Source: Treponema sp. (lineage in GTDB: Bacteria > Spirochaetota > Spirochaetia > Treponematales > Breznakiellaceae). From it: 11,240 bases of DNA. Positions within the stretch are counted from its first letter, which is position 1. Each line of letters starts with the position of its first letter. The stretch spans positions 1 through 11,240 of the forward strand of contig JAISLX010000088.1 of NCBI GenBank assembly GCA_031277045.1. Reading direction: 5' to 3'. The notes below the pieces were generated by a model. It was not told where the DNA came from. It saw only the letters and a program-made list of their open reading frames with translations, and made no database searches. The translations under genes and the position numbers were made by a program. This document shows, piece by piece, positions 1-11,240 of the stretch.

Positions 1-640
1 GGGTGGTGATCCGCACCTGGTAGACGCCGGCGGCAAGGGAGGGAATGACGGCGATGACTTCGGAGGGGTTGTTCACCACGATGTCCGACGGGTCAACCTT
101 GACCGGCGCGCCGCCTCCGGCGGGGACGAAATAAAGGCCCACCGAGGGGTCGTCCCCGGCGATCTTGAGCCTGGTTCCGGAGAGCTTGATGTCCCGGCCG
201 GGGGTGAGTTTGTCGTTCACGGTCCCGCTCTTCACGTCAAGCGCGGCGGTGATGACTGTCCCGGTAACGACCACGGCGATCTTCTTGAGCTTGATCCCCC
301 CCGCGGCGGCGCGCAGGGCGGTGCCGGGGTGCAGGTTTATCCTGACCTTGTGCTTGGCCGGGTCAACGGTCTCGTCTATCGTGGAGAAGCGTCCCGGGAT
401 GCTGGGGAAGGCGTTCAGTATTTCGGTGGTAAACCCCCCGCCCTCGGCGATAATCTGCGCCATCACCTGCTTCTCCGCCTCCAGCACCGACGCGATGTCC
501 GATCGGGTCAGTCCCGCGCCGATCTGCATGATACGGTCGACGATCTCGCTGGTCGTATACGACTTCACGTTCACTACCTGCGCCCGGTAGTCCCCGGGCT
601 CATCCGTCAGCAAATTCTCTTCCAGTGTGTATTCCAGCAT
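1..640 (-). CDS. HU-like DNA-binding domain / DUF4469 protein (3' end outside window)
   Basis: The visible part is 213 residues read leftward from an ATG at 640-638, cut by the window edge. Residues 1-125 resemble the IHF/HU-like DNA-binding domain of the Bvu_2165 group: an N-terminal segment with the YRAQVVN motif, a helical stretch around TRSDIASVLEAEKQVMAQII (46-65), and DPAKHKVRINLHPG (93-106), which matches the beta-arm region of such proteins. Residues 135-213 (KLTPGRDIKLSG, DDPSVGLYFV, PSLAAGVYQVRI) look like the Ig-like DUF4469 domain. No signal peptide is visible, so it is probably cytoplasmic and binds DNA. The start is supported by an AGGAGG five bases upstream. It follows the DUF4105 gene after 31 bases on the same strand and is probably co-transcribed. 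Family assignment is from memory of motif patterns; the actual target and role are unknown. Confidence 0.8.
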   Translation of the reverse strand, partial: MLEYTLEENLLTDEPGDYRAQVVNVKSYTTSEIVDRIMQIGAGLTRSDIASVLEAEKQVMAQIIAEGGGFTTEILNAFPSIPGRFSTIDETVDPAKHKVRINLHPGTALRAAAGGIKLKKIAVVVTGTVITAALDVKSGTVNDKLTPGRDIKLSGTRLKIAGDDPSVGLYFVPAGGGAPVKVDPSDIVVNNPSEVIAVIPSLAAGVYQVRITT

Positions 641-645
641 ATAAG

Positions 646-651
646 CCTCCT
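646..651 (-). promoter_or_regulatory. Shine-Dalgarno site of the HU-like gene
   Basis: The minus strand reads AGGAGG here, five bases before the ATG at 640. It is the strongest ribosome binding site in the window and decides the start of the HU-like gene. It lies within the 31-base gap after the DUF4105 stop codon, so the HU-like gene can be translated independently even if it shares a transcript. Confidence 0.8.
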
Positions 652-671
652 GCTCATGGTATATGGTAAGC

Positions 672-1952
672 CTAGCATAAAGTGTCCATAAAGAAAGCGT
701 GAGGGCCCCCGCTGCTGCGCGGGCTGGTCCGGTAATTGACGGCGCACAGGCAGAGCGCCAGGGGCAGGATAAGGGCCAGGGCGGACTGATTGCGCTGGAA
801 AAGGGCGGGGATTGGCCGTAGTAGCAGGGTAAGGACGCCGCCGCCGGCTACGCAGGTCCAGAGCGCCCGCAGGCAGGTTTCCGGTTTTAGGCGCGTCTTT
901 CCGGCGGCGGTCAGGATGCCCAGGGGCAGCGCCGCCAGGGGCAGGGGGTTCACGAACAGCAGGTTTAGGTTCTGCTGAATGTAGTCGTTTTTCATAAAGA
1001 ACTGGGCGTAGACCAGCGCGCAGCCCAGGAGTCCGATTGCAAGCCCTGCCAGGGCCTGGAAGATTCCCCAGGCGATCCGGCCTGCCAGGGGCTTTTTGCG
1101 GCGCAGGACCCCCAGCGCCGCCGCCAAAGCGGCCGGCAGCAGGCCTGTCAGCAGGACGCTGGGCCAGCGGTTTAACGGCGCGTTCAAAACGGGGGGCCGT
1201 TCCCTGCTGGCGTTGATTATCTCCACGGAGCGTACCAGTCTGCGTTCGGCGCCGGATGAGCCGGTGTACGAAAAACCGGTGATATTGCGGCCTAGTTCCA
1301 CCGGAAGGAACATCTCGTCCCACAGGGTAACCGGCGCGTCCAGGTCCCGGCCCATCAGAAAATCGAGGAGCCAGTCCTGGACGGGCCGTGACCAGGTAAA
1401 ACGCCGGACGTGCTGCCGGATCGAAAGGCGGCCTGAGGTTTTGGAGGCCCACTCTTTGAAGTGTCCCCCGGTTCCTATGTCGACAATGTCGCGGATACGG
1501 GTGGAACAGTTGTCGCGGAATTCGTGGTAATCGTAGTACGTGTTTTCAGGAAGGACGCTGTTCTCCGCGTAATCGAGGACGAGGTTCTTGGCGGCCGCCT
1601 CCAGGTCCAGCGTGTAGACTGTAATGTCCCGGTCTTCGCTGATATAGGGCTGGTAGTCCAGGGTTTCGGCGGCGCTGTGGTACTGTACCTGGTTGTTCAG
1701 GAAGTCCTGTAAAAAGCTGCCGCTTGGGTAGGAAAATATGCCCCAGTCAAAGACCCGGGAATAGCGCCACCGGGTGTTTTCCACGACCAGGGCGGCATGG
1801 CCCCACCAGATAAATATGTCGTCCGCGGGTCCGTACACCACAATTTTGAATACGAGGTCGTCAACGGGCCTTTGTCCGCTCTGCCCCCAGGCGCATATCG
1901 CGTGGAGCAGCAGCAGCGGCGCAAGCGCTGTGCCTTTGTTGTGAAATGCCAT
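672..1952 (-). CDS. DUF4105 (Lnb N-terminal periplasmic domain-like) membrane protein
   Basis: A 426-residue protein. Residues 1-23 form a signal peptide or N-terminal anchor (hydrophobic core APLLLLHAICAWG). Residues 30-230 carry the DUF4105 pattern: WWGHAALVVENT (49-60, with His52) and YHEFRDNCSTRIRDI (142-156, with Cys149). The conserved His and Cys of this family are usually taken as catalytic in an NlpC/P60- or papain-like fold. The C-terminal half has about five hydrophobic spans (near 264-283, 293-316, 329-349, 361-380 and 389-406), so the DUF4105 domain should face the periplasm while the tail is membrane embedded. The start ATG is at 1952; upstream is only a weak G-rich ribosome binding site (GGGGG). 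It is followed 31 bases later by the HU-like gene. Substrate and function are unknown; the name Lnb comes from a lacto-N-biosidase domain and does not prove glycosidase activity. Confidence 0.85.
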   Translation of the reverse strand: MAFHNKGTALAPLLLLHAICAWGQSGQRPVDDLVFKIVVYGPADDIFIWWGHAALVVENTRWRYSRVFDWGIFSYPSGSFLQDFLNNQVQYHSAAETLDYQPYISEDRDITVYTLDLEAAAKNLVLDYAENSVLPENTYYDYHEFRDNCSTRIRDIVDIGTGGHFKEWASKTSGRLSIRQHVRRFTWSRPVQDWLLDFLMGRDLDAPVTLWDEMFLPVELGRNITGFSYTGSSGAERRLVRSVEIINASRERPPVLNAPLNRWPSVLLTGLLPAALAAALGVLRRKKPLAGRIAWGIFQALAGLAIGLLGCALVYAQFFMKNDYIQQNLNLLFVNPLPLAALPLGILTAAGKTRLKPETCLRALWTCVAGGGVLTLLLRPIPALFQRNQSALALILPLALCLCAVNYRTSPRSSGGPHAFFMDTLC

Positions 1953-2068
1953 GCTTTAAGCCCCCGGTCCGGAGCCTATACCGGAACCAATATCGTGCTC
2001 AATGGGCTTGTTCGATGCGGATAGGCGCACGCGTAGAACTCCGCCCCGGAATGGATTACACTTTGGGC

Positions 2069-3559
2069 ATGGTAGATTTAATTCCCAGACCCGCGTCCCT
2101 TAAACCGCTTGAGGGACGCTTTGTTTTTCGGGGGATCCCCGCTGTCGAGGGGGATGCTATATTTAAGGCTGAAATGGACGCGGCACGAGGCCAGTTTTCG
2201 GCCATAACCGTTCCGTCTCCCGGTTCGGACAAGTCCGGCCGTCTCCGCTGTCTCCGTCTTGACGGTCCGCCTGAGGACAAAAACGGGGAGCGCTACCGTC
2301 TGAGTATCGGGACGGAGGAGATCACGGTAGAAGCCGCCGCCGGGGCGGGTATGTACCACGGTCTTCAGACGCTGCGGCAGTTGTTTCTTTCCGCCGCCGG
2401 CCGCGGGGACTACGCTGTCCCCTGTATGGAAATCGAGGACCAGCCCCGGTTCGGCTGGCGGGGGTATATGCTGGACTGTTCCCGGCACTTTTACTCGGTT
2501 CCTTTTGTCAAAAAGATCATCGACGCCCTTTCGCTGCACCATATCAACGTGTTCCACTGGCACCTTACCGACGATCAGGGCTGGCGTCTGCCTGTTCCCG
2601 CCTATCCCCTGCTTACGGAGATTGGCTCCCGCCGTTTCGACAACCGCCGGGGAAGGTATCTGGGGGGGTTTTACAGCCACGACGAGATCCGCGATGTGCT
2701 GGGTTTCGCCGCGGCCCGGCATGTCGAGGTGGTGCCGGAGATCGATCTTCCCGGCCACGCCGGTTCTATCCTTGCCGCCTATCCGGGGCTGGGCTGTACC
2801 GGGGGGCCTTACCGTGTGGAGGATCGTTTCGGCATATTCGAGGACGTGCTGTGCGCGGGAAACAACGGGATATTCGATCTGGCGGCGGCGGTGTTTGATA
2901 CGCTGGGGGAGCTTTTCCCCTCAAGGTATGTCCATATCGGCGGGGACGAGGTGCGTTTTAACCGCTGGAACGAGTGTCCCAAGTGCCGGGAACGGCTTCG
3001 TGAAACCGGTCTTAACGAGGGCAGGGAACTTCAAAGCTGGATCACCGTAAAACTGGCCGGGATGCTCAAAGAGCGGGGCAAAACCGCTATCGGCTGGGAC
3101 GAGGTGCTGGAAGACAATCCCCGTTACAGCCTGCCGGAAAATGTAGTGGTTATGTCCTGGCGGGGGGTTGCCGGCGGCGTCGAGGCTGTCCGGCGCGGCC
3201 GGCGGGTGATCATGTCCCCTAATACCGAAGGCTGCTATCTGGATTACAAGCACTGCGATGACCCGGAGGAGCCGGGCCAGCTTGGCGTTTCCCGGCTTTC
3301 CCGGCTTTACGCCCTGGACCCCCTTGCCGGCATGGGGGAGGAGGCCCGCGGCCTTGTCCTGGGAGCCCAGGCGAACCTGTGGTCCGAACTTATCTACTCC
3401 GGAAAGATCGCGGAGTACATGACCTTCCCCCGGATCTGCGCCCTGGCGGAAGCCCTGTGGACGGGGAACGGCGGCCTGGACGATTTTCTTGGCCGCCTTG
3501 CCGGGCACCGCAAGCGGCTTGATGCGCTGGGATTGCTTCAGTACCTTGGCGAGCCGTAG
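2069..3559 (+). CDS. GH20 beta-N-acetylhexosaminidase
   Basis: A 496-residue glycoside hydrolase family 20 enzyme, expected to release terminal GlcNAc or GalNAc by substrate-assisted catalysis. From the chosen ATG: residues 1-120 are the alpha/beta GH20b-like domain (IPRPASLKP near the start); the (beta/alpha)8 catalytic domain begins at RFGWRGYMLDCSRHF (127-141). Hallmarks are HINVFHWHLTDDQGWR (158-173), VVPEIDLPGHAG (221-232), the catalytic pair Asp293-Glu294 in HIGGDEVRF, WDEVLED (343-349), MSWRG (362-366) and ANLWSE (435-440). No signal peptide is seen, suggesting action on imported or recycled amino sugars. The open frame extends upstream to 1946, but that start would overlap the divergent DUF4105 gene. 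ATGs at 2051 and 2069 are the realistic choices; neither has a good ribosome binding site, and 2069 best fits the family N-terminus. The last codons and stop (LGEP, TAG) are also the first unit of the downstream repeat array. Confidence 0.92.
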   Translation: MVDLIPRPASLKPLEGRFVFRGIPAVEGDAIFKAEMDAARGQFSAITVPSPGSDKSGRLRCLRLDGPPEDKNGERYRLSIGTEEITVEAAAGAGMYHGLQTLRQLFLSAAGRGDYAVPCMEIEDQPRFGWRGYMLDCSRHFYSVPFVKKIIDALSLHHINVFHWHLTDDQGWRLPVPAYPLLTEIGSRRFDNRRGRYLGGFYSHDEIRDVLGFAAARHVEVVPEIDLPGHAGSILAAYPGLGCTGGPYRVEDRFGIFEDVLCAGNNGIFDLAAAVFDTLGELFPSRYVHIGGDEVRFNRWNECPKCRERLRETGLNEGRELQSWITVKLAGMLKERGKTAIGWDEVLEDNPRYSLPENVVVMSWRGVAGGVEAVRRGRRVIMSPNTEGCYLDYKHCDDPEEPGQLGVSRLSRLYALDPLAGMGEEARGLVLGAQANLWSELIYSGKIAEYMTFPRICALAEALWTGNGGLDDFLGRLAGHRKRLDALGLLQYLGEP

Positions 3560-5039
3560 TTCACCCGGCGAGCCGTAGTTTTCCAAGGGCGTGAGCGGGC
3601 CTCGACAACCCGGCGGGCTGTAGCTCCCTTGGCGGGCCGTAGTTTACCTGGCGAGCCGTAGTTTACCTGGCGAGCCGTAGTTCACCGGGGGCGTGAGCGG
3701 GCCTCGACAACCCGGCGGGCTGTAGTTCTTCTGGCTGGCCGTAGTTCCCTTGGCTGGCTGTAGTTCGCCGGGTAAGCCGTAGCTCACCTGGCGGGCCGTA
3801 GTTCCCTTGGCGGGCCGTAGCTCACCTGACAAGCCGTAGCTCCCTTGGCGGGCCGTAGTTCGCCTGGCGAGCCGTAGTTCACCGGGCGAGCCGTAGTTCA
3901 CCGGGGGCGTGAGCAGGCCTCGACAACCCGGCGGGCCGTAGTTCGCATGGCGCGCGGGAGTTCCCGTGCCGGGCCGTAGGTCGCAGGGCGGGCTGGACTT
4001 CTCCGGGCACGCCGACGTTCACCTGGCGGGTCGTAGCTCACCTGGCGGGCTGTAGTTCACCTGGCGGGCTGTAGTTCGCCGGGGGGCGTAGTTCTCCGGG
4101 CGGGCCGTAGCTCACCTGGCGGGCCGTAGTTCGCCGGGGACGTGAGCGGGCCTCGACAACCTGGCGGGCCGTAGTTCGCCTGGGGCGTGAGCGGGCCTCG
4201 ACAACCCGGCGGGCCGTAGTTCGCCGGGCAAGCCGTAGTTTTCCTGGCGGGCAGTAGTTCACCGGGCAAGCCGTAGCTCACCGGGCGGCGTGAGCGGGCC
4301 TCGGCAACCCGGCGGGCTGTAGTTCACCTGGCGGACCGTAGTTCCCTTGGCGAGCCGTAGTTCACCTGGCGGGCCGTAGCTCCCTGGCGGGCCGTAGTTC
4401 GCCGGGGGCGTGAGCGGGCCTCGACAACCCGGCGGGCTGTAGTTCACCGGGCGGGCTGTAGTTCACCGGGGGGCGTCCCGGCGGGCCGTAGTTCGCTGGG
4501 TGGGCCGTAGTTCGCCGGGGGCGTGAGCGAGCCTCGACAACCCGGCGGGTCGTAGTTCTCCTGACGAGCCGTAGTTCTCCTGGGGCGTGAGCGGGCCTCG
4601 GCAACCCGGCGGGCCCGTAGTTCACCGGGCGGGTCGTAGTTTTCCTAGCGGGCCATAGTTCACCTGGCGAGCCGTAGTTCCCTTGGTAAGCCGTAGTTCA
4701 CCTGGCAAGCCGTAGTTCACCGGCGGGCTGTAGTTCGCCGGGCGGGTCGTAGCTCCCTGGCGGACCGTAGTTCACCGGAGGCGTGAGCGGGCCTCGACAA
4801 CCCGGCGGGCCGTAGTTCACCTGGCGGGCTGTAGCTCACCTGGGACGTGAGCGGGCCTCGACAACCCGGCAAGCCGTAGTTCGCCGGGGACGTGAGCGGG
4901 CCTCGACAACCTGGCGGGCCGTAGTTCACCTGGCGGGCTGTAGTTCGCCGGGGGGCTGTAGTTCTTCTGGCGGGCCGTAGTTCCCTTGGCGGGTCGTAGT
5001 TCACCGGGGGCGTGAGCGGGCCTCGACAACCCGGCAAGT
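3544..5039. repeat. Degenerate 19-bp tandem array with embedded 26-bp inserts (about 60 units)
   Basis: Consensus unit on the plus strand: TCACCTGGCGGGCCGTAGT, 19 bp, repeated head to tail with no spacers. I parse 61 units including the one overlapping the GH20 stop codon. The first five bases vary most (TCACC, TCGCC, TCCCT, TCTCC, TTACC); the core GGCGGGCCGTAGT is best kept. Thirteen units (starting at 3580, 3682, 3898, 4131, 4176, 4278, 4399, 4512, 4576, 4772, 4836, 4881 and 5001) are 45-46 bp because they carry an extra 26 bp containing GCGTGAGCGGGCCTCGACAA. The last is cut off at about 5039. One unit at 4463 is 30 bp, apparently a partly deleted long unit; a few are 17-18 bp. Because 19 is not divisible by three, the array gives shifting open frames on the minus strand (NYGPPGELRPAR, RTTARQ, VVEARSRP), which I regard as incidental. 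The array lies between the convergent GH20 and CE7 genes. Origin and function are unknown. Confidence 0.95.
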
Positions 5040-5234
5040 TTCCCGCACGTCTTCGGCAAAAGGCCGTTTGAAGGCGTCGATCATGACCGGGGTGAACCGT
5101 ACTGAATTGCCCGCGTGTAAGTTTCAAAATCCGGGCTGTGCTCCGGATGCACGCAAAAGGGAACGGAACTTCCCCCAGGGTTTTAACCATGACGGCGAAG
5201 GTGTCCGCCGGCTCTCTGCCGGCCAAAACACGGC
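5040..5234. other. Unassigned spacer with possible coding remnant, between array and CE7 gene
   Basis: About 195 bases with no convincing intact gene. On the minus strand one frame contains a stretch reading PADTFAVMVKTLGEVPFPF near its upstream end, and a second frame reads FTPVMIDAFKRPFAEDV and continues into the first long repeat as RVVEARSRPR before a TGA. The change of frame suggests either a decayed short gene or chance open frames in GC-rich DNA. I do not recognise the parent family. Confidence 0.4.
5201..5231 (-). terminator. Hairpin just downstream of the CE7 stop codon
   Basis: GCCGGC (5207-5212) and GCCGGC (5218-5223) pair around a TCTCT loop, and the outer GTGT (5201-5204) and ACAC (5228-5231) can add to the stem. 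It begins four bases beyond the CE7 stop codon on the minus strand. There is no following U-run, so it is a weak candidate for an intrinsic terminator and might only be an RNA-stabilising stem. Confidence 0.35.
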
Positions 5235-6191
5235 TTACAAATCTGTTAGAAATTCAAATATCAGGTCGTCCGAATCCGGCAGTCCCTCGTGGCCAAAGTC
5301 GGGATAAAAACGCGCGCTTTTTTTCGCGGTAATGTTATTGTACATGGCGAACTGGCTTGAGGGCGGGCAGATGGTATCCATAAGTCCCGTGAACATGAGG
5401 ACTTCCGCCTTGATCCGCTGCGCCAAAAACTGGAGGTCCACATAGCCCAGGGTGGTAAATATTTCGTCTTCGCGCTCGTGCCGGGGATCAAAACAGCGAA
5501 AGTAATTCTGCAGTTCCTGGTAGGCCCCTTTGGCAAGGTCCATTTCCCAGACCCGCTTGTAATCGCAGAGAAAAGGATAAACAGGGGCCGCCTTTTTCAG
5601 ATTCGGGTAGAGGGCGGCGCAGGCCACCGTGAGGGCCCCGCCCTGGGAGCCGCCGAAAGCGCCCATGCGGTCCGCGTCAACTTCGTCAAAATCCGCAAGG
5701 ACCCTGGCCAGAGCCGCGGTATCGAGGAAAACGTTACGGAACAGAAGTTTGTCCGGATTCCCGCCCAGGCCCCGGATAATATGGCCGTTGAGGGTGTTGC
5801 CCGTAACGCCGCCGGAATCCTCGCTCCGGCCCCCCTGTCCCCGGACATCCATCGCGGCGGCGGCTATTCCCGCCGCGGCGTAGGGGAGCAGAAGAAACCA
5901 GTCCCCGGCGCTGCCTGAGTAGCCGTGGAATTTAAGTACGGCGGGGATTTTTCCCGCTGTTGCCTTGGGCCGCAGGTACCTGGAGTGAATCCGGGCGCCC
6001 CCCACACCGGTAAACCAAAGGTCAAAGCAGTCGGCGTAGGGACAGGTAAAGTCCGCGGGGATAAGTTCCGGTCTAAAGTCCTGGGCGTCCAGTTCCTCCA
6101 GGGCCCGGCCCCAGTAGGCATCGTGATCGGCGGGCCGCGGATTACGGCCCCTATAGCTGAGTAATTCTGAAACCGGTAAATCAATAAGCAT
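5235..6191 (-). CDS. CE7 acetyl xylan esterase / cephalosporin-C deacetylase
   Basis: A 318-residue alpha/beta hydrolase of carbohydrate esterase family 7 (AXE1 family), which removes acetyl groups from xylo-oligosaccharides and also from cephalosporin C. Visible hallmarks: RGQG at 117-120, the nucleophile elbow GGSQGG with Ser182, Asp272 in LMDTICPPS, and His301 in FGHEG, in the order and spacing expected for the CE7 triad. The length matches the usual 315-330 residues. The ATG at 6191 is chosen because the protein MLIDLPVSELLSY aligns with the family N-terminus; the open frame reaches 6287, but the extra 32 residues look unrelated. No clear Shine-Dalgarno precedes 6191. No signal peptide is seen, so a cytoplasmic role on imported acetylated oligosaccharides is likely. 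It converges with GH20 across the repeat array. True substrate is not decidable from sequence. Confidence 0.92.
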   Translation of the reverse strand: MLIDLPVSELLSYRGRNPRPADHDAYWGRALEELDAQDFRPELIPADFTCPYADCFDLWFTGVGGARIHSRYLRPKATAGKIPAVLKFHGYSGSAGDWFLLLPYAAAGIAAAAMDVRGQGGRSEDSGGVTGNTLNGHIIRGLGGNPDKLLFRNVFLDTAALARVLADFDEVDADRMGAFGGSQGGALTVACAALYPNLKKAAPVYPFLCDYKRVWEMDLAKGAYQELQNYFRCFDPRHEREDEIFTTLGYVDLQFLAQRIKAEVLMFTGLMDTICPPSSQFAMYNNITAKKSARFYPDFGHEGLPDSDDLIFEFLTDL

Positions 6192-6441
6192 AAACCGATT
6201 ATGGCAAGCGCGGCGCTTTTTGGCTAGAAGTTTGTGTCTTGCGCATACGGCCCCGCAGACTGCCGAAGGACCGCCTTTGGTGTCCAAAGGACGCCGGCCG
6301 GGTTTTTATGGATTTTTTCGCGGCAAGGCGCGCTTTCATGCCGCGTCCGCCGGATCTGTTATCCGGTTTAATCTCTTGGGGTTTAATTCTCCGCCCTTTG
6401 GGGCGGTTCAATTTATAAGCAAAATACGATAGATCTGAGGA
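6192..6441. other. Intergenic region with three short hairpins
   Basis: No gene is supported here. Three perfect inverted repeats are visible: CCTTTGG/CCAAAGG at 6274-6290 with a 3-base loop, CCGGAT/ATCCGG at 6350-6366 with a 5-base loop, and CCGCCC/GGGCGG at 6391-6406 with a 4-base loop. The last is followed on the plus strand by TTCAATTT and could be a weak terminator. The region must hold the promoter of the CE7 gene, but I cannot point to convincing -35 and -10 boxes. Confidence 0.5.
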
Positions 6442-7153
6442 GTGAATGCATACATACATCACATTATGAAAACCATACCGCAAATCACGGGAGGTAAACA
6501 AGGTCTTTTTGAAGGGTTTCATGAAATACAGAAATTCTTTGAGGATTTCAGTAACACCACCATTCCGGATACCATGCTGAACAGCCTGGTAAAAAAAGTG
6601 TACGGGAAACCGCCGGTGATACATATTTGCCGGGATTCCACCGCGATAGAAAGAAACAAAGAAGAGGGCACAAACCGCCTAAAAAGCATGGAAGGCGGGC
6701 GAAAAGTGCGCCAAAACCAGTAAAAGAACCAACGGCGCTTGAGGGTCAGAGCAAGAAAACCATTTCCAGGCTCAAAGATGAGGTGAATAAGGAATGCGCC
6801 TGGGGCCGCAAGAAAAACAGCCGGGGGAACATGAGCTATTGGAGAGGATATAAATTACACCCCGATGTTTCTGATATAAGTTTTCCGGTAAGCGTTCATG
6901 TGACCGGCACGAATGCCCATGACAGCCAGGCGGCGATACTGTTAGAAAAGATGACCATGGGAAAAGTCCGTCATTTTTTATACGGGAACGATATAAGATC
7001 AGAACAACCGTTGAACGGGCATATTCTCATTTGAAGGACAATCTGATTCCAAGAAAGATGTACGTCAAATGAGTTCAGAAGGTTTTTTGTTTAATGTCCG
7101 CTGTTTTATGTCCTGCCGCTCAAAAATAGTTACAATACTTTACCCCCGCATAA
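6442..7153 (+). pseudogene. Decayed DDE transposase remnant (IS4/IS5/IS1182-like)
   Basis: Pieces of one transposase appear in order in three different frames. Frame one (from a GTG at 6442) holds MKTIPQITGGKQGLFEGF, then KPPVIHICRDSTAIE, the expected first-Asp region. Around 6650-6665 the homology moves to the next frame: KPPKKHGRRAK and then YWRGYKLHPDVSDISFPV and GTNAHDSQAA, a typical second-Asp block. Near 6985-7000 a large part is missing and the third frame resumes with RTTVERAYSHLKDNLIP (the Glu region) from 7001. This is followed by in-frame stops at 7070 and 7128 and a C-terminal-like VFCLMSAVLCPAAQK and LQYF before the TAA at 7151. The element is therefore frameshifted, internally deleted and not active. 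I could not find convincing terminal inverted repeats. The exact IS family is inferred from remembered motif style. Confidence 0.75.
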
Positions 7154-7181
7154 TTTGATTTTGAGATCGGCTCATGTAAAT

Positions 7182-7222
7182 ATTGGACTTGTTCGATAAC
7201 CCGGTTGGTTATCTCACAAGTC
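7182..7222. repeat. Intergenic palindromic element, copy A
   Basis: GACTTGT (7186-7192) pairs with ACAAGTC (7216-7222) and GATAACC (7195-7201) pairs with GGTTATC (7207-7213), separated by two-base TC bulges on each side and a CGGTT loop. Bases 7182-7214 reappear inverted at 9733-9765 with a single mismatch, so this is a dispersed repeat and not just a local stem. Confidence 0.8.
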
Positions 7223-7227
7223 TCCCC

Positions 7228-7261
7228 AAAAACACGGATTTTGCCGAGAATCCGTGTTTTT
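7228..7261. terminator. Intrinsic terminator-like hairpin with T-run
   Basis: A 13-bp perfect stem, AAAAACACGGATT (7228-7240) with AATCCGTGTTTTT (7249-7261), closes an 8-base loop. It continues into a T-rich tail (TTTTTTGTTGTTTTT) on the plus strand, and its A-rich left side would give U residues on the minus strand. It could act in both directions: after the transposase remnant and against read-through from the minus-strand gene. Confidence 0.7.
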
Positions 7262-7279
7262 TGTTGTTTTTAAGCGGCT

Positions 7280-7309
7280 GTTGTTCAGAAACCGAAGTTT
7301 CTGAACAAC
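7280..7309. repeat. Dispersed hairpin element, second family, copy 1
   Basis: A perfect 13-bp stem, GTTGTTCAGAAAC with GTTTCTGAACAAC, closes a CGAA loop. Its layout (GGCTG before the stem, GAA in the loop, CT after it) recurs at 9771-9807 with compensated changes in the stem, and more loosely near 9814-9850. Confidence 0.75.
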
Positions 7310-7516
7310 TCTATTTTCTATTGCGCGCAGATCGGCATTGTCAATTGACAGCGCCATAAATGAAATGCATATAGAGATAAACAAAAAAGGTACTATTGGG
7401 CAAAAGAAAAAAGCAGATGCGGGTTCTTCCGGTGATATACCATTTTAATTTTTTGAAATATTCCTTAGGGTTCCTTGCCGCCCAGCGGCCGTATTCACGG
7501 CCGAAGCGTCTTCCGT

Positions 7517-9691
7517 CTACCTTTTCACGCTCCAGGACAGGCTGAGTTCCCAGGGGATGGACATGTCCTCCCAGGGGAAGGCAGGGCAGCTTAAACTGGC
7601 GCTGAGTCTGTCCCGGCTTCCGTTCAGCGCTGCGCGAAGGGTGAAGTTCCGGCTTGTTTCGAATTCTTCTTCCGCGTCCGGAACGCTTACCGTGTAGTTC
7701 AGTCCCGCCGCGAGGCGCAGCTTCCCCGGGCCGGCCCATCCGAAGCCCGGATTCACGGGTTTTGCCCAGCTTAGTTCCCCGCCGGCCTTGGCCGATTCGA
7801 AATAGTAGGAACCTCCGGGAACGGGCCAGGGTTCCCGGCCCGTTTTTCCCTGTCCCCAATCCCCGGCGGGGGAGCCTGTCAGGGAGCCGGAAACATTAAG
7901 GGTCAGGATGCCGGCCGCGCTGTTGGCTGCACCATTAGCCGTGCCGCCGCTTAGGCCGGCGACAAGGTTCTGGGGGTTTGCCGTAAGACTTATGTTCAGA
8001 TCGGCGCTGTCCTTGACGGTGTCCCGCGCATCCCGGTCCGCGCCAAGGGAAATCCGCGAAAGCCTCAGGGGCAGCTTTGTGGCGGGCGGACGGTAGTAAA
8101 ACCCGGAGGAACTGCGGTCAAAACGCAGGTCCAAATCCCCATCGCTGTTTATGGTAAGACCGGGACCGGAGACCGTGGTGTTGATCCCGAACTGCCCCGC
8201 CCGGCTGTGCCGCCATTCAAATTTTCCCCCGGCGCGGAATCCCGCTCCCGGATTCACGCCGTCGCTTCCGGTGTAGTTCCGTCCCGCCCCGTCCGCCGCG
8301 AGGGAAAGCTGCCAGCCGTTTCGCGGGCCTCCGGTGCGGAAACCCAGGTTCGCGTAGATGTCATCTCCCAGAATCGAGGTTCGGGACCACGCCAGGTCCC
8401 CGCTCAGGCTAAGGCGGGCCGTTTTGAACAGCATTCCCAGCGCGTAAAGGCTGAATTTTTGAGGGGGAAGAGGGCGCGTTTTCGAAAACCAGCTGGATGA
8501 TTTCCGGGCCGGAAGGGTGCTGGCGGTGTAAAAGCCTTCCAGACTAAAGGCCGCGGCCGTTCCCAGGCGGCCTTCCAGGGCGGCGGTCAGCGCCGTTCCT
8601 TCCCCCAGCGGAGGCCGGGGAATTTCTCCGGCCTCCGCCGCGCCAAGCCGCGCGGGATCCACGCGGGCCGAGGCAAAGCCCCGCAGCGTCAGGCCGGACC
8701 CCGTTCCCGGCGGTTCAAAAAAGGGAGTCCCCAGGTAGAGGTACAACGCCGGCTTTTTGGTTGAAGGGCTGGTCCGCAGATCCGCCCCCGATGCCTTCCG
8801 GGATTCGGCGAAAGGCAAAGCGCGGGCCCAGGGACCGCGAAGCCGTGCCGCCAGCCCCCATTCCTCCAGAGGGCCGTAGAGAAGCCGGGAACCTGTGGAC
8901 GCATGGTAAAGCCCGCCCAGAAGGTTTGTGGTCGCCTTGTCAACGTTCCAGGGAAGTCTGTGAAACAGAGTCTCCGGATCGCCGCCCCGGCGGTCCAGAA
9001 GTTCCGCCCGCAGGGTTAAACCGGGCCCGGCAAGGCGCAGCTTTAAATCCGCCCGGTTTGTCAGATTGGCCCCCTCTTTCCAGGAGCCGGTCCAGAGCAA
9101 ATCCCAGTCAGGAAAACCGGTGTTGGGCAGCCCATTGCTGGGCTGCCCAGCAATGGGCTGCCCGTTACCGGGCTGCCCGCGCGATCCCGGTGCCGTGTCC
9201 GCGGCGGCCGGAAGGGATGCCTGGTTTTTGACGGCGGAACCCCGGCCATTGGCTGCCGGAACAAGCGCGGGTTTCCGGTTTCCGGCGTCCTCGTTCCCGG
9301 TCTCCGCCGCAATGATTCGCGGCGTGGTACTTCGCGGCGTGGTACTTTGCGACGCGATATTTCGCGGCGCCGCACCCGCGCCCTGCGGCGGATTCCGGGC
9401 GGGGACTATGCCGGTGTCCGGGGCCCGCGCCCCGGTAAGCCCTGCGTAAACGAGACCCGAAGTCATAGCCTGACCGTTAAGCCGGTCCGCGGACTGCCCT
9501 GCGGTCCGGATATAAGCCGGCGCCGCGGCCCGGACCTCAGCCTGTCCTGCGCCTTCGGAAACCCGGGCCATAGAGCAGCTCTGAAAGCAGATCATCAACA
9601 GCGCCGTAACCCATGTCCAAAGCGGATGGATATTCATACCCATATATAGGGGCGGCCGCGCGCGGCGCTTGGTTTTTTGGGGAAAATTCAA
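7517..9691 (-). CDS. Exported protein of unknown function, beta-rich and outer-membrane-like
   Basis: A 724-residue protein that I do not recognise. Residues 5-12 are basic (KTKRRAR) and 24-36 hydrophobic (LWTWVTALLMICF), followed by FQSC at 36-39: a signal peptide, possibly with a permissive spirochaetal lipobox. Residues 45-190 are low-complexity, rich in Ala, Gly, Pro, Gln and Thr, with repeats STTPR and GQPxNGQP. From about 192 to the end, alternating polar/hydrophobic strands with many Gly, Leu and aromatic residues (LTLRAELLDRRGG, LYLYLGTPFFEPPG, ARLSLSGDLAWSR, LDLRFDRSSSGFYYRPP, WELSLSWSVKR) suggest an outer-membrane beta-barrel. The end WSVKR lacks the usual terminal Phe. The longest start is a TTG at 9691, which includes the basic region; ATGs at 9643 and 9637 are alternatives. 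None has a clear ribosome binding site. It stands alone on its strand, flanked on both sides by inverted copies of one intergenic repeat. Confidence 0.75.
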   Translation of the reverse strand: MNFPQKTKRRARPPLYMGMNIHPLWTWVTALLMICFQSCSMARVSEGAGQAEVRAAAPAYIRTAGQSADRLNGQAMTSGLVYAGLTGARAPDTGIVPARNPPQGAGAAPRNIASQSTTPRSTTPRIIAAETGNEDAGNRKPALVPAANGRGSAVKNQASLPAAADTAPGSRGQPGNGQPIAGQPSNGLPNTGFPDWDLLWTGSWKEGANLTNRADLKLRLAGPGLTLRAELLDRRGGDPETLFHRLPWNVDKATTNLLGGLYHASTGSRLLYGPLEEWGLAARLRGPWARALPFAESRKASGADLRTSPSTKKPALYLYLGTPFFEPPGTGSGLTLRGFASARVDPARLGAAEAGEIPRPPLGEGTALTAALEGRLGTAAAFSLEGFYTASTLPARKSSSWFSKTRPLPPQKFSLYALGMLFKTARLSLSGDLAWSRTSILGDDIYANLGFRTGGPRNGWQLSLAADGAGRNYTGSDGVNPGAGFRAGGKFEWRHSRAGQFGINTTVSGPGLTINSDGDLDLRFDRSSSGFYYRPPATKLPLRLSRISLGADRDARDTVKDSADLNISLTANPQNLVAGLSGGTANGAANSAAGILTLNVSGSLTGSPAGDWGQGKTGREPWPVPGGSYYFESAKAGGELSWAKPVNPGFGWAGPGKLRLAAGLNYTVSVPDAEEEFETSRNFTLRAALNGSRDRLSASLSCPAFPWEDMSIPWELSLSWSVKR
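9125..9163. repeat. Perfect 19-bp inverted repeat inside the coding region
   Basis: GGGCAGCCCATTGCTGGGC (9125-9143) and its exact complement (9145-9163) are separated by one base. The arms encode part of the Gly-Gln-Pro repeats, about residues 177-189 of the 724-residue protein. Related GGGCTGCCC units continue to about 9178. Confidence 0.9.
9316..9375. repeat. Four 15-bp tandem units inside the coding region
   Basis: Units at 9316, 9331, 9346 and 9361. The first two are identical (TTCGCGGCGTGGTAC); the third and fourth are diverged. Being a multiple of three they keep the frame and encode the STTPR-type linker around residues 106-126. Confidence 0.85.
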
Positions 9692-9732
9692 CGGCGTTTC
9701 GGCGCGGGAATGAGGATACCCTGGAAATTAGC

Positions 9733-9765
9733 AGATAACCAGCCGGGTTATCGAACAAGTCCAAT
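9733..9765. repeat. Intergenic palindromic element, copy B (inverted relative to copy A)
   Basis: The complement of this stretch matches 7182-7214 at 32 of 33 positions. Its own stem is GATAACC (9734-9740) with GGTTATC (9746-9752). It lacks the matching outer arm that completes copy A, so it is a shorter version. Confidence 0.8.
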
Positions 9766-9770
9766 CTAAG

Positions 9771-9807
9771 GAGGCTGTTCAAAAAACTGAAGTTTTGGAA
9801 CAGCCTC
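9771..9807. repeat. Dispersed hairpin element, second family, copy 2
   Basis: GAGGCTGTTC (9771-9780) pairs perfectly with GAACAGCCTC (9798-9807), with an inner stem AAAAC/GTTTT around TGAA. It matches the element at 7280-7309 in loop and overall plan. A looser relative follows at 9814-9838 (TTTTCAA/TTGAAAA around the palindrome GCGGCCGC). Confidence 0.75.
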
Positions 9808-9936
9808 AGTTAATTTTCAAGCGGCCGCTGTTTGAAAACTGAAATTCTTAACCGGGCCCGCCTTATATAAAAATCTATATGACCGATGGTATTTCCCGGC
9901 GAGGTTTTCGCGCTTGCTTTGGGAGACTTGCGGCCG

Positions 9937-9968
9937 GCCTTGTTATCGAACAAATTCAATAACAAGGC
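9937..9968. repeat. Hairpin related to the palindromic element, copy C
   Basis: GCCTTGTTAT (9937-9946) pairs perfectly with ATAACAAGGC (9959-9968). The stem and loop contain GTTATCGAACAA, the same core as copies A and B, so it looks like a diverged or rearranged family member. Confidence 0.65.
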
Positions 9969-10013
9969 TTCCCCACAACTTCAATTTTTGGAAAAGCTGT
10001 CCTGAGTTTATAT

Positions 10014-10041
10014 AAAAAAGCGGGCTTTAGACCGCTTTTTC
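10014..10041. terminator. Intrinsic terminator-like hairpin
   Basis: A 9-bp stem, AAAAAGCGG (10015-10023) with CCGCTTTTT (10032-10040), around an 8-base loop. Read on the minus strand the right-hand arm ends in a run of six T and then TATAT, so termination would be stronger for leftward transcripts; a rightward transcript has only five T followed by C. Confidence 0.65.
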
Positions 10042-10050
10042 GGAAGCTTC

Positions 10051-10075
10051 TCCCAAAATCAACCGGGTTTTGGGA
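10051..10075. repeat. Short hairpin
   Basis: TCCCAAAA (10051-10058) pairs perfectly with TTTTGGGA (10068-10075) around a 9-base loop. It lies directly after the terminator-like stem and may be part of the same structured segment. Confidence 0.55.
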
Positions 10076-10100
10076 AAATCCCTGACATGCGGAAAAATCA

Positions 10101-10142
10101 GCCGTGGTTACGGACAACGCCGCCGCCGCCTGTAACCACGGC
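10101..10142. repeat. 11-bp stem with GC-rich 20-base loop
   Basis: GCCGTGGTTAC (10101-10111) pairs perfectly with GTAACCACGGC (10132-10142). The loop contains CGCCGCCGCCGCC. The right arm is followed by GGATAAAAAACGG. It is the longest perfect stem in the region upstream of adhE and could be a terminator, an mRNA leader structure or a protein site. Confidence 0.6.
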
Positions 10143-10439
10143 GGATAAAAAACGGAACGTCTTGGCGCGATATTGGAATATATATGACATTATTCCGAAT
10201 TTATATTTCCCGCCGCCATATTTATTTGATAATTTCTTTATGAAAAACAAATCTATTGAAGAGAGGATTGCCTGCAGCCGAGGCGGAGTTACGGTGTATG
10301 AAACCTTCAACAGGGCGCTGGGTATTCCCGGCGGAAATGGGAAAACTTTTGCGCTGCTGTTACTACGATACCGAAGCGGATTTTTAGAATCCCGGAAGTT
10401 TTGCCGCATGTAAAAAAAGAGTTGTTTGGAAACCGGTAC

Positions 10440-10445
10440 GAGGAG
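10440..10445 (+). promoter_or_regulatory. Shine-Dalgarno site of adhE
   Basis: GAGGAG lies ten bases before the ATG at 10456, a slightly long but acceptable spacing. The protein N-terminus predicted from this ATG aligns with other AdhE proteins, so the start is well supported. Confidence 0.7.
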
Positions 10446-10455
10446 TTAAGTTAGT

Positions 10456-11240
10456 ATGGAAACGATTAACGCGCATGAAACGGTAAAAGACGCGGACACT
10501 TTGCGGAACGCGATAGCCCGGATCCGCGAAGCCCAGCGGATCTACGCGGGTTTTAGCCAGGAACAGGTGGACCGGATCTTTTTTGCCGCGGCCAGGGCCG
10601 CCGCCAAGGCGCGCATTCCTCTGGCGAAGATGGCGGTGGAAGAAACCGGCATGGGGGTGGTCGAAGACAAGGTAATTAAAAACCTCTACGCCTCGGAGTA
10701 TATCTACAACGCCTACAAAAACACGAAGACCTGCGGCGTCATCGAAGAAGACCGTGCCTGTGGTATACAAAAAATCGCCGGCCCCATAGGTCTGGTGGCG
10801 GCGGTGATCCCCACTACCAATCCTACTTCCACGGCTATCTGTAAGGCCCTGCTGGCCCTGAAAACCCGGAACGGCATTATCTTTTCGCCCCACCCCCGGG
10901 CAAAAAACTGTACCAACGCCGCCGCAAAGATCGTCCTGGACGCGGCCTGCGCCGCGGGTGCGCCGGAGGGCATCATCGGCTGGATCGATGAGCCGGGCCT
11001 GGAGCTGACCAACACGGTAATGAAGGAGGCGGACATAATCCTGGCCACCGGCGGCCCCGGCATGGTGAAGGCGGCCTACTCCAGCGGAAAGCCCGCCATA
11101 GGCGTGGGTTCCGGCAACGTACCGGCCATCATCGACGACAGCGCGGATATTCTGCTGGCCGTCAATTCCATCATCCATTCCAAGACCTTTGACAACGGTA
11201 TGATCTGCGCTTCGGAACAGTCGGTCATCGCATTAGACAG
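10456..11240 (+). CDS. adhE: Bifunctional acetaldehyde-CoA/alcohol dehydrogenase, N-terminal part (runs off window)
   Basis: The first 261 residues are present, very close in sequence to the acetaldehyde dehydrogenase half of E. coli AdhE, which reduces acetyl-CoA to acetaldehyde with NADH before a C-terminal iron-dependent alcohol dehydrogenase domain makes ethanol. Visible landmarks: AGFSQEQVDRIFFAAA (31-46), ARIPLAKMAVEETGMG (52-67), KVIKNLYASEYIYNAYK (72-88), IPTTNPTSTA (118-127), FSPHPRAKN (143-151), ATGGPGMVKAAYSSGKPAIG (197-216), and the catalytic Cys251 in DNGMICASEQS. Full-length AdhE is about 870 residues; only the first third is here, so presence of the alcohol dehydrogenase domain is inferred from similarity. 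A stand-alone acetaldehyde dehydrogenase is the alternative, less likely given the match. It is preceded by a long structured leader and probably forms its own transcription unit. The enzyme is cytoplasmic and forms filaments (spirosomes) in other bacteria. Confidence 0.93.
   Translation, partial: METINAHETVKDADTLRNAIARIREAQRIYAGFSQEQVDRIFFAAARAAAKARIPLAKMAVEETGMGVVEDKVIKNLYASEYIYNAYKNTKTCGVIEEDRACGIQKIAGPIGLVAAVIPTTNPTSTAICKALLALKTRNGIIFSPHPRAKNCTNAAAKIVLDAACAAGAPEGIIGWIDEPGLELTNTVMKEADIILATGGPGMVKAAYSSGKPAIGVGSGNVPAIIDDSADILLAVNSIIHSKTFDNGMICASEQSVIALD

Follow-up and report, generated by a model that had tools for sequence, protein, structure and literature searches.

The question raised by this locus is how a tandem array of about 60 short units came to lie between the end of a GH20 beta-N-acetylhexosaminidase gene and a convergent gene for an AXE1-type acetyl xylan esterase in a Treponema sp. 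genome (assembly GCA_031277045.1, contig JAISLX010000088.1, positions 1 to 11,240, analysed as a whole and called here the window), and what the source is of the insert that lengthens some of its units. The array is very probably a chimeric bacterial minisatellite, grown by slippage or unequal exchange and fused to a dying neighbour gene for a class II aldolase, the junction having then spread internally. In our judgement, the origin of a minisatellite is seldom visible in bacteria. Here the seed (the last codons of a gene), early stages of two to three copies, the long array and the source of a second unit class can be seen in the sequence, and the locus is a tangible example of an array that has joined a decaying gene beside it and distributed a fragment of that gene.

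Unit parsing resolved positions 3541-5002 into 60 complete head-to-tail units, followed from 5003 by a truncated 61st unit of the long class. Unit lengths are 19 bp (42 units), 18 bp (4), 17 bp (1), 30 bp (1), 45 bp (10) and 46 bp (2). The consensus of the short unit is ACCTGGCGGGCCGTAGTTC and that of the long unit is GCCGGGGGCGTGAGCGGGCCTCGACAACCCGGCGGGCCGTAGTTC. All 13 long units, 12 complete and one truncated, carry their 26-bp insert at the identical position, after base 5 of the unit. The array and its parts are as follows.

3541-5038, forward strand: whole array, 60 complete units and the truncated long unit
3544-3562, forward strand: first short unit (trimmed to 19 bp), overlapping the GH20 stop codon
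3582-3626, forward strand: long unit 1 (45 bp)
3684-3728, forward strand: long unit 2
3900-3944, forward strand: long unit 3
4133-4222, forward strand: long units 4 and 5, an adjacent pair (4133 and 4178)
4280-4325, forward strand: long unit 6 (46 bp)
4401-4445, forward strand: long unit 7
4465-4494, forward strand: 30-bp unit, by eye a long unit with an internal deletion
4514-4558, forward strand: long unit 8
4578-4623, forward strand: long unit 9 (46 bp)
4774-4818, forward strand: long unit 10
4838-4927, forward strand: long units 11 and 12, an adjacent pair (4838 and 4883)
5003-5038, forward strand: truncated long unit 13, contiguous with the aldolase remnant and the likely founder of the insert; the alignments to aldolase begin in or just before it

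An earlier reading of the stretch made without database searches (the sequence-only reading) had described about 60 spacerless 19-bp units, thirteen of them long, with the insert always at the same point, and this description holds. Its two adjacent pairs of long units were recovered too; the gaps it gave as 1-9 short units in fact range from 0 to 10 shorter units. It had further placed the array between convergent gene ends. GH20 and AXE1 are convergent, but on the left the array begins within the coding sequence of GH20, and on the right it is bordered by a pseudogene remnant instead of plain intergenic DNA. We likewise rejected clustered regularly interspaced short palindromic repeats (CRISPR), because the units are contiguous and without unique spacers and the extra segment is always identical. 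A protein tandem repeat was also rejected, because stops occur in all six frames (8-27 each in 3544-5039), although open stretches of 106-124 codons, the longest 124, exist on the minus strand. Six minus-strand open reading frames (ORFs) gave no Pfam family above the cut-off, though a weak hit to collagen (E 0.018) was noted.

By eye, the units of 17 and 18 bp at 4078 and 4947 resemble further deletion derivatives. Derivatives of 30, 18 and 17 bp in one array point to loss of long units as well. Tandem Repeats Finder reported a period-19 row scoring 547, and over parts of the array longer periods (216, 113, 103 and 64 bp among others, at 82-86% matches), possible traces of block duplication. 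The longest exact repeat within the array is 55 bp, so that a short-read assembler with k-mers above that length resolves it; the array length is as assembled in a single contig (11240 bases) and is provisional. The longest array of period ≤70 in relatives spans 216 bp (607 kb, 62 loci), which makes the size of the window array exceptional among them, and no second long array was detected among 195 family genomes, a set that carries no completeness values.

The flanking genes to which the array is related are these.

2051-3559, forward strand: GH20 beta-N-acetylhexosaminidase gene (Pfam PF00728, E 6.9e-104)
5015-5206, reverse strand: decayed internal remnant of a class II aldolase gene (192 bp), from alignment to the relatives' loci L103 and L102 and from blastn
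5235-6287, reverse strand: AXE1-type acetyl xylan esterase gene, an open frame (PF05448, E 9.1e-122)

The last codons of the GH20 gene, GGC GAG CCG TAG (Gly-Glu-Pro-stop, the stop at 3557-3559), fall within the first repeat unit, indicating that the array grew from the 3' end of this gene. The product ends in ..LLQYLGEP-stop. Among the 14 homologues printed, nine share the Gly-Glu-Pro C-terminus at 71-83% identity (8 as QYRGEP, 1 as QYHGEP), and GGCGAGCCGTAG therefore looks like the GH20 gene's own end; the remaining five end in GAP, GEL, GEL, DGL and GV. Named relatives among the best matches of the GH20 protein were Treponema and other spirochaete proteins, and the nearest named genomes bear isolate names of a type used in termite-gut surveys.

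In the nearest genus, seven genomes were searched for GH20; six matched, and the gene end could be read in three. Two of these sister species carry the unit directly at the stop codon. L102 (genome G008, GH20 82% identical) has three copies with a 20-bp period at 3800-3851, the last one partial, and L103 (genome G013, also 82%) has two copies with a 19-bp period at 3774-3804, the second one partial. At the third gene end, L107 (G012, 76%), no unit copies were found. Copy number at the GH20 3' end thus runs across species from about 60 in the window to 3, 2 and 0. In G011 (64%) the GH20 match breaks off near a contig end, before the gene is complete, and the match in G009 (35%) looks like another gene. 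In more distant relatives (L003, L005, L006 and L007), no such unit occurs in the first 97 bases past the GH20 stop. A different array was observed in L002 (59%), where 5.1 perfect 23-bp copies occupy 7511-7628, from 13 bases past the GH20 stop to the contig end. Across the family, an 18-mer of the unit was found at ≤1 mismatch in 4 of 195 genomes, with a maximum of 3 copies per genome. G013 carries the unit at two loci; in L104 of this genome, three copies of the palindromic unit lie at 3029-3084, from 27 bases past a sigma-70-type gene.

The right end of the array leads to the source of the insert. Window positions 5015-5206 align with L103 5272-5467 at ~80% identity (score 216, best of 50 shuffles 32.5; blastn E 1e-44), and positions 4995-5211 with L102 4314-4533 (score 206.5, best shuffle 27.0). 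Both alignments include the last long unit, and the insert is thus contiguous with the aldolase remnant. Both relatives have a class II aldolase gene downstream on the reverse strand, supported by NCBIfam in the two and, in L102, where the gene is intact, by PF01116 (E 1.4e-77). It follows the units immediately in L102. The gene order in L103 is GH20, PfkB-type kinase, aldolase, AXE1 (the last at 5700-6659, adjoining aldolase there too), and is matched in the window by GH20, array, aldolase remnant, AXE1. Judged from coordinates against L103, the window lacks ~470 bp of the 3' part of the aldolase gene and ~170 bp of the 5' part.

In blastn, six places in the array match L103 5275-5294 exactly over 20 bases of the insert. 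By eye, the reverse complement of the insert reads V-V-E-A, one extra base, A-H-A-P-G, and resembles the aldolase stretches VVQAARPLGID (L102), VVEAACPMGID (L103) and THAMGID (the G012 remnant in L203). In L203, pieces of an aldolase pseudogene at 1751-1934 adjoin a PfkB-type gene; with aldolase in pieces in G012 as well, this gene has probably been lost more than once.

Mean identity to the consensus is 0.853 for the short units (42 of 19 bp) and 0.969 for the insert (ten 45-bp units, a figure that excludes the two 46-bp units and the truncated tail unit). As insert copies are much more alike than short units, the spread of the insert probably post-dates the divergence of the short units.

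We propose the following course of events. A duplication of ~19 bp would have arisen at the GH20 3' end, at a short palindrome, comprising the last three codons, the stop and 7 bp, the stage of 2-3 copies being preserved in the two sister species. In the window lineage, slippage or unequal recombination would then have expanded it to about 60 units. The reverse-strand aldolase gene lost its 3' and 5' parts, as the comparison with L103 documents, leaving the 192-bp remnant that touches the array; its place in the order of events is conjectural. A deletion may have fused array and aldolase, probably at a chance similarity between GTAGTTCACCGGG and ACCTGGCGGG of the unit and GTCGATTCCCAGGGGC and ACCCGGCGGG of aldolase. 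The junction unit, with ~26 bp of aldolase DNA, is present at 12 further places in the array, to which it could have been copied by unequal exchange or gene conversion, and truncated long unit 13 is the likely founder of the other twelve.

Several observations weigh against this scheme. The entire 26-bp insert differs by 5 edits from each of L102 and L103, mostly in its left half. The most similar GH20 gene (85%, in G001) lies on a contig that stops inside the gene, leaving its end unreadable. Neighbouring units resemble each other only as much as chance predicts at the 29 lags tested, 1-29 (largest z 2.0), and exact repeats are not enriched over 300 shufflings of the unit order, although both kinds of trace would be expected from simple slippage or block duplication. 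The short units beside long ones, which exceed random units in similarity by 1.8 standard deviations at most, also speak against simple block duplication. The mixed order may reflect either conversion-like exchange or the survival of only well-mixed arrays in short-read assembly. Because a short-read assembler breaks on recent long duplications, the absence of such traces may be a matter of assembly selection. Variation along the unit is very uneven (chi-square 117.7 over 19 positions), with positions 5, 10, 13, 15, 16 and 18 off consensus in ≤1 of 42 units. This unevenness may stem from the mixing of a few founder variants, and selection could explain it as well.

Among the rival explanations, the sequence-only reading had considered a mobile 26-bp cassette that targets the unit. 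In this form the idea found no support, since the insert is itself part of the aldolase gene next to the array, although its spread inside the array is real. A related view, which we regard as unlikely, is that the insert is a small selfish module, spreading in the array independently of its neighbours by gene conversion or targeted copying. The greater uniformity of inserts than of surrounding short units would agree with it, as would the flanks of the long units, whose short units are at most 1.8 standard deviations (sd) more alike than random ones (similarity 0.826, 0.810, 0.751 and 0.752 at offsets -2, -1, +1 and +2, null ~0.77, sd 0.03; 8-10 flanking 19-bp units per offset, 12 complete long units). 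The picture would be no different, however, if array units simply underwent ordinary conversion, with no mobility involved, and an exact pattern for the insert had no match in genome_contigs or viral_contigs. A broader proposition, to which we give little more credence than to the selfish module, is that a tandem array can acquire part of the gene beside it and, through frequent conversion-like exchange in which the flanks become unlinked, multiply this part within itself, the 26-bp fragment being a selfish passenger. Somewhat more plausible, yet still doubtful, is an origin from a dispersed palindrome like the repetitive extragenic palindromic (REP) sequences of GTAG type, inserted at the GH20 3' end and supplying its stop codon. 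The seed unit forms a perfect hairpin (z -4.2 in L102, -3.4 for the L103 copy), and similar palindromes were detected at 17 sites in seven genomes of the genus, against 3 for the reversed control pattern, one stem pair being Watson-Crick at 16 of the 17. According to Di Nocera et al. 2013 (PMC3733652), GTAG REPs are located downstream of genes or between convergent genes, their TAG is often the stop of the gene, and they form blocks in some genomes. G013, which has the unit at two loci, also has two matches to the Y1 transposase family (PF01797, E 4.8e-8 and 7.1e-5), candidates for the RAYT type associated with such repeats. The copy number of the unit is tiny, though, and 8 of the 17 palindrome sites appear to sit in one orthologous gene, which weakens the idea of a dispersed family. 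GTAG is not conserved at the other palindrome sites, PF01797 was matched in only two of seven genomes (G011 and G013, not G008 or G010), and the Gly-Glu-Pro-stop ends of homologues may simply be native coding sequence.

A structured transcript, with a hairpin or terminator zone between the convergent GH20 and AXE1 genes, is the least probable alternative, and the structured antisense or termination zone envisaged by the sequence-only reading is thereby disfavoured. Single seed units fold well in L102 and L103, and traces of this persist: of 52 testable window units, 7 have the full set of 7 stem pairs and 35 have 6, and 11 of the 60 folded units have z below -2. The ancestral hairpin stem is weakened in the array, not lost. 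Against this stand a mean z of -0.7 over the 60 units and a value near 0 for the commonest form. Compared with shuffles, neither the two-unit consensus nor 1 kb of array on the plus strand (z +0.5) folds better, and on the minus strand the 1 kb folds worse (z +2.5), for which reason RNA structure of the whole array was rejected. A terminator or promoter zone was rejected too: no promoter-like site was found in 3400-5300, and the one terminator-like site there lies inside the aldolase remnant, outside the array, with 2.0 expected by chance. Hardly more probable is a protein-binding array, in which the conserved unit core would be a putative binding site and the repeats would titrate or organise a protein. 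It would agree with the marked unevenness of conservation within the unit, with the concentration of about 60 sites at a single locus and with the HU-type DNA-binding protein encoded in the window, although two genes separate the latter from the array; dispersed sites are few, sister species have only 2-3 copies, and nothing ties the HU-type protein to the array. We also consider it improbable that the array is an assembly artefact of a metagenome contig. It is known from one contig, without a second long array elsewhere, and its random-looking unit order is such as a tangled assembly graph might give, but the 55-bp longest exact repeat is resolvable by larger k-mers, and on its right the array passes into the gene remnant that synteny predicts. 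The chimeric minisatellite remains the explanation that we favour, and the minisatellite growth that had been among the suggestions of the sequence-only reading is supported by the arrays of 2 and 3 units that relatives carry at this position.

The array is probably not a functional system. A known RNA family was rejected, the window having given no Rfam match at gathering score, as was tRNA as the identity of the array. A phage or plasmid repeat was rejected after a 'distant' blastn search (low-complexity filter on) gave no match, and a search for GH20 relatives in viral contigs led nowhere. In the literature on termite treponeme repeats, minisatellite birth, mycobacterial interspersed repetitive units (MIRU) and DUF1388, the repeat was not described among the matches listed.

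Other repeats and genes were observed in the window and in relatives. The reverse-strand gene at 2-640 encodes the HU-type DNA-binding domain together with DUF4469 (PF14848 E 9.1e-26, PF14734 E 2.3e-22). Broken remains at 6442-7034 are apparently of an IS1182-type transposase (weak match at 6627-7034, E 4.8e-4, below the curated cut-off). Two short arrays of 15-bp period (9124-9178 and 9316-9369) lie inside reverse-strand ORF 7517-9691, for which no Pfam or NCBIfam family was found at E 0.001, and an inverted repeat (ATTGGACTTGTTCGATAACCCGG.. and complement, by eye) flanks this ORF at 7182-7213 and 9734-9765. In L106 (3158-3235), in-frame palindromic repeats encoding a PGELRS-type peptide occur in a threonylcarbamoyl-AMP synthase (Sua5/TsaC) gene, with a Pfam DUF1388 match; similar palindromes are present in apparently the same gene in four other genomes of the genus (L204, L205, L208 and L209), the family having been tested in L106 only. 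Short tandem arrays number 20.8 and 26.1 per 100 kb in G008 and G013, surveyed over 197 and 291 kb that include the unit-bearing loci, compared to 14.2 in 400 kb of G007, a single control genome of different base composition, so that the excess proves little.

With CRISPR arrays the locus shares many short direct repeats, and it differs in having no unique spacers and an extra segment that is always identical. An autonomous mobile element would have insert copies at unrelated loci with defined ends, and exact-pattern scans of genome and viral contigs, a set outside which the window's own genome lies, disclosed none. The nearest described palindromes that we found are the GTAG-type REPs (PMC3733652). 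The window unit is similarly a short GTAG palindrome 3' of a gene, between convergent genes and with TAG as stop, and differs from the REPs in its very few copies per genome and in the weakening of the hairpin in the array. The seed unit has the short palindromic stem-loop, and the GTAG positions are off consensus in ≤3 of 42 units each; the best hairpin places GTAG in loop and stem, and, by eye, another tandem register would leave it outside. The seed may be of GTAG-REP nature, but with at most 3 copies per genome (195 genomes) and 17 looser-pattern sites in seven genomes, it lacks the high dispersed copy number, and we do not class the unit as a GTAG REP.

The array fits the general kind of bacterial minisatellites. 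Such loci, also known by their variable number of tandem repeats (VNTR; MIRU-VNTR is an example), consist of head-to-tail non-coding units near gene ends and sometimes overlap stop codons. Head-to-tail units within the usual range of about 10-100 bp are present here beside a gene end, and copy number at the same locus varies between relatives, which in this case are species, not strains. What sets the window array apart from these loci is the short 19-bp unit, the presence of about 60 copies, and a second unit class derived from a captured fragment of the neighbouring gene.

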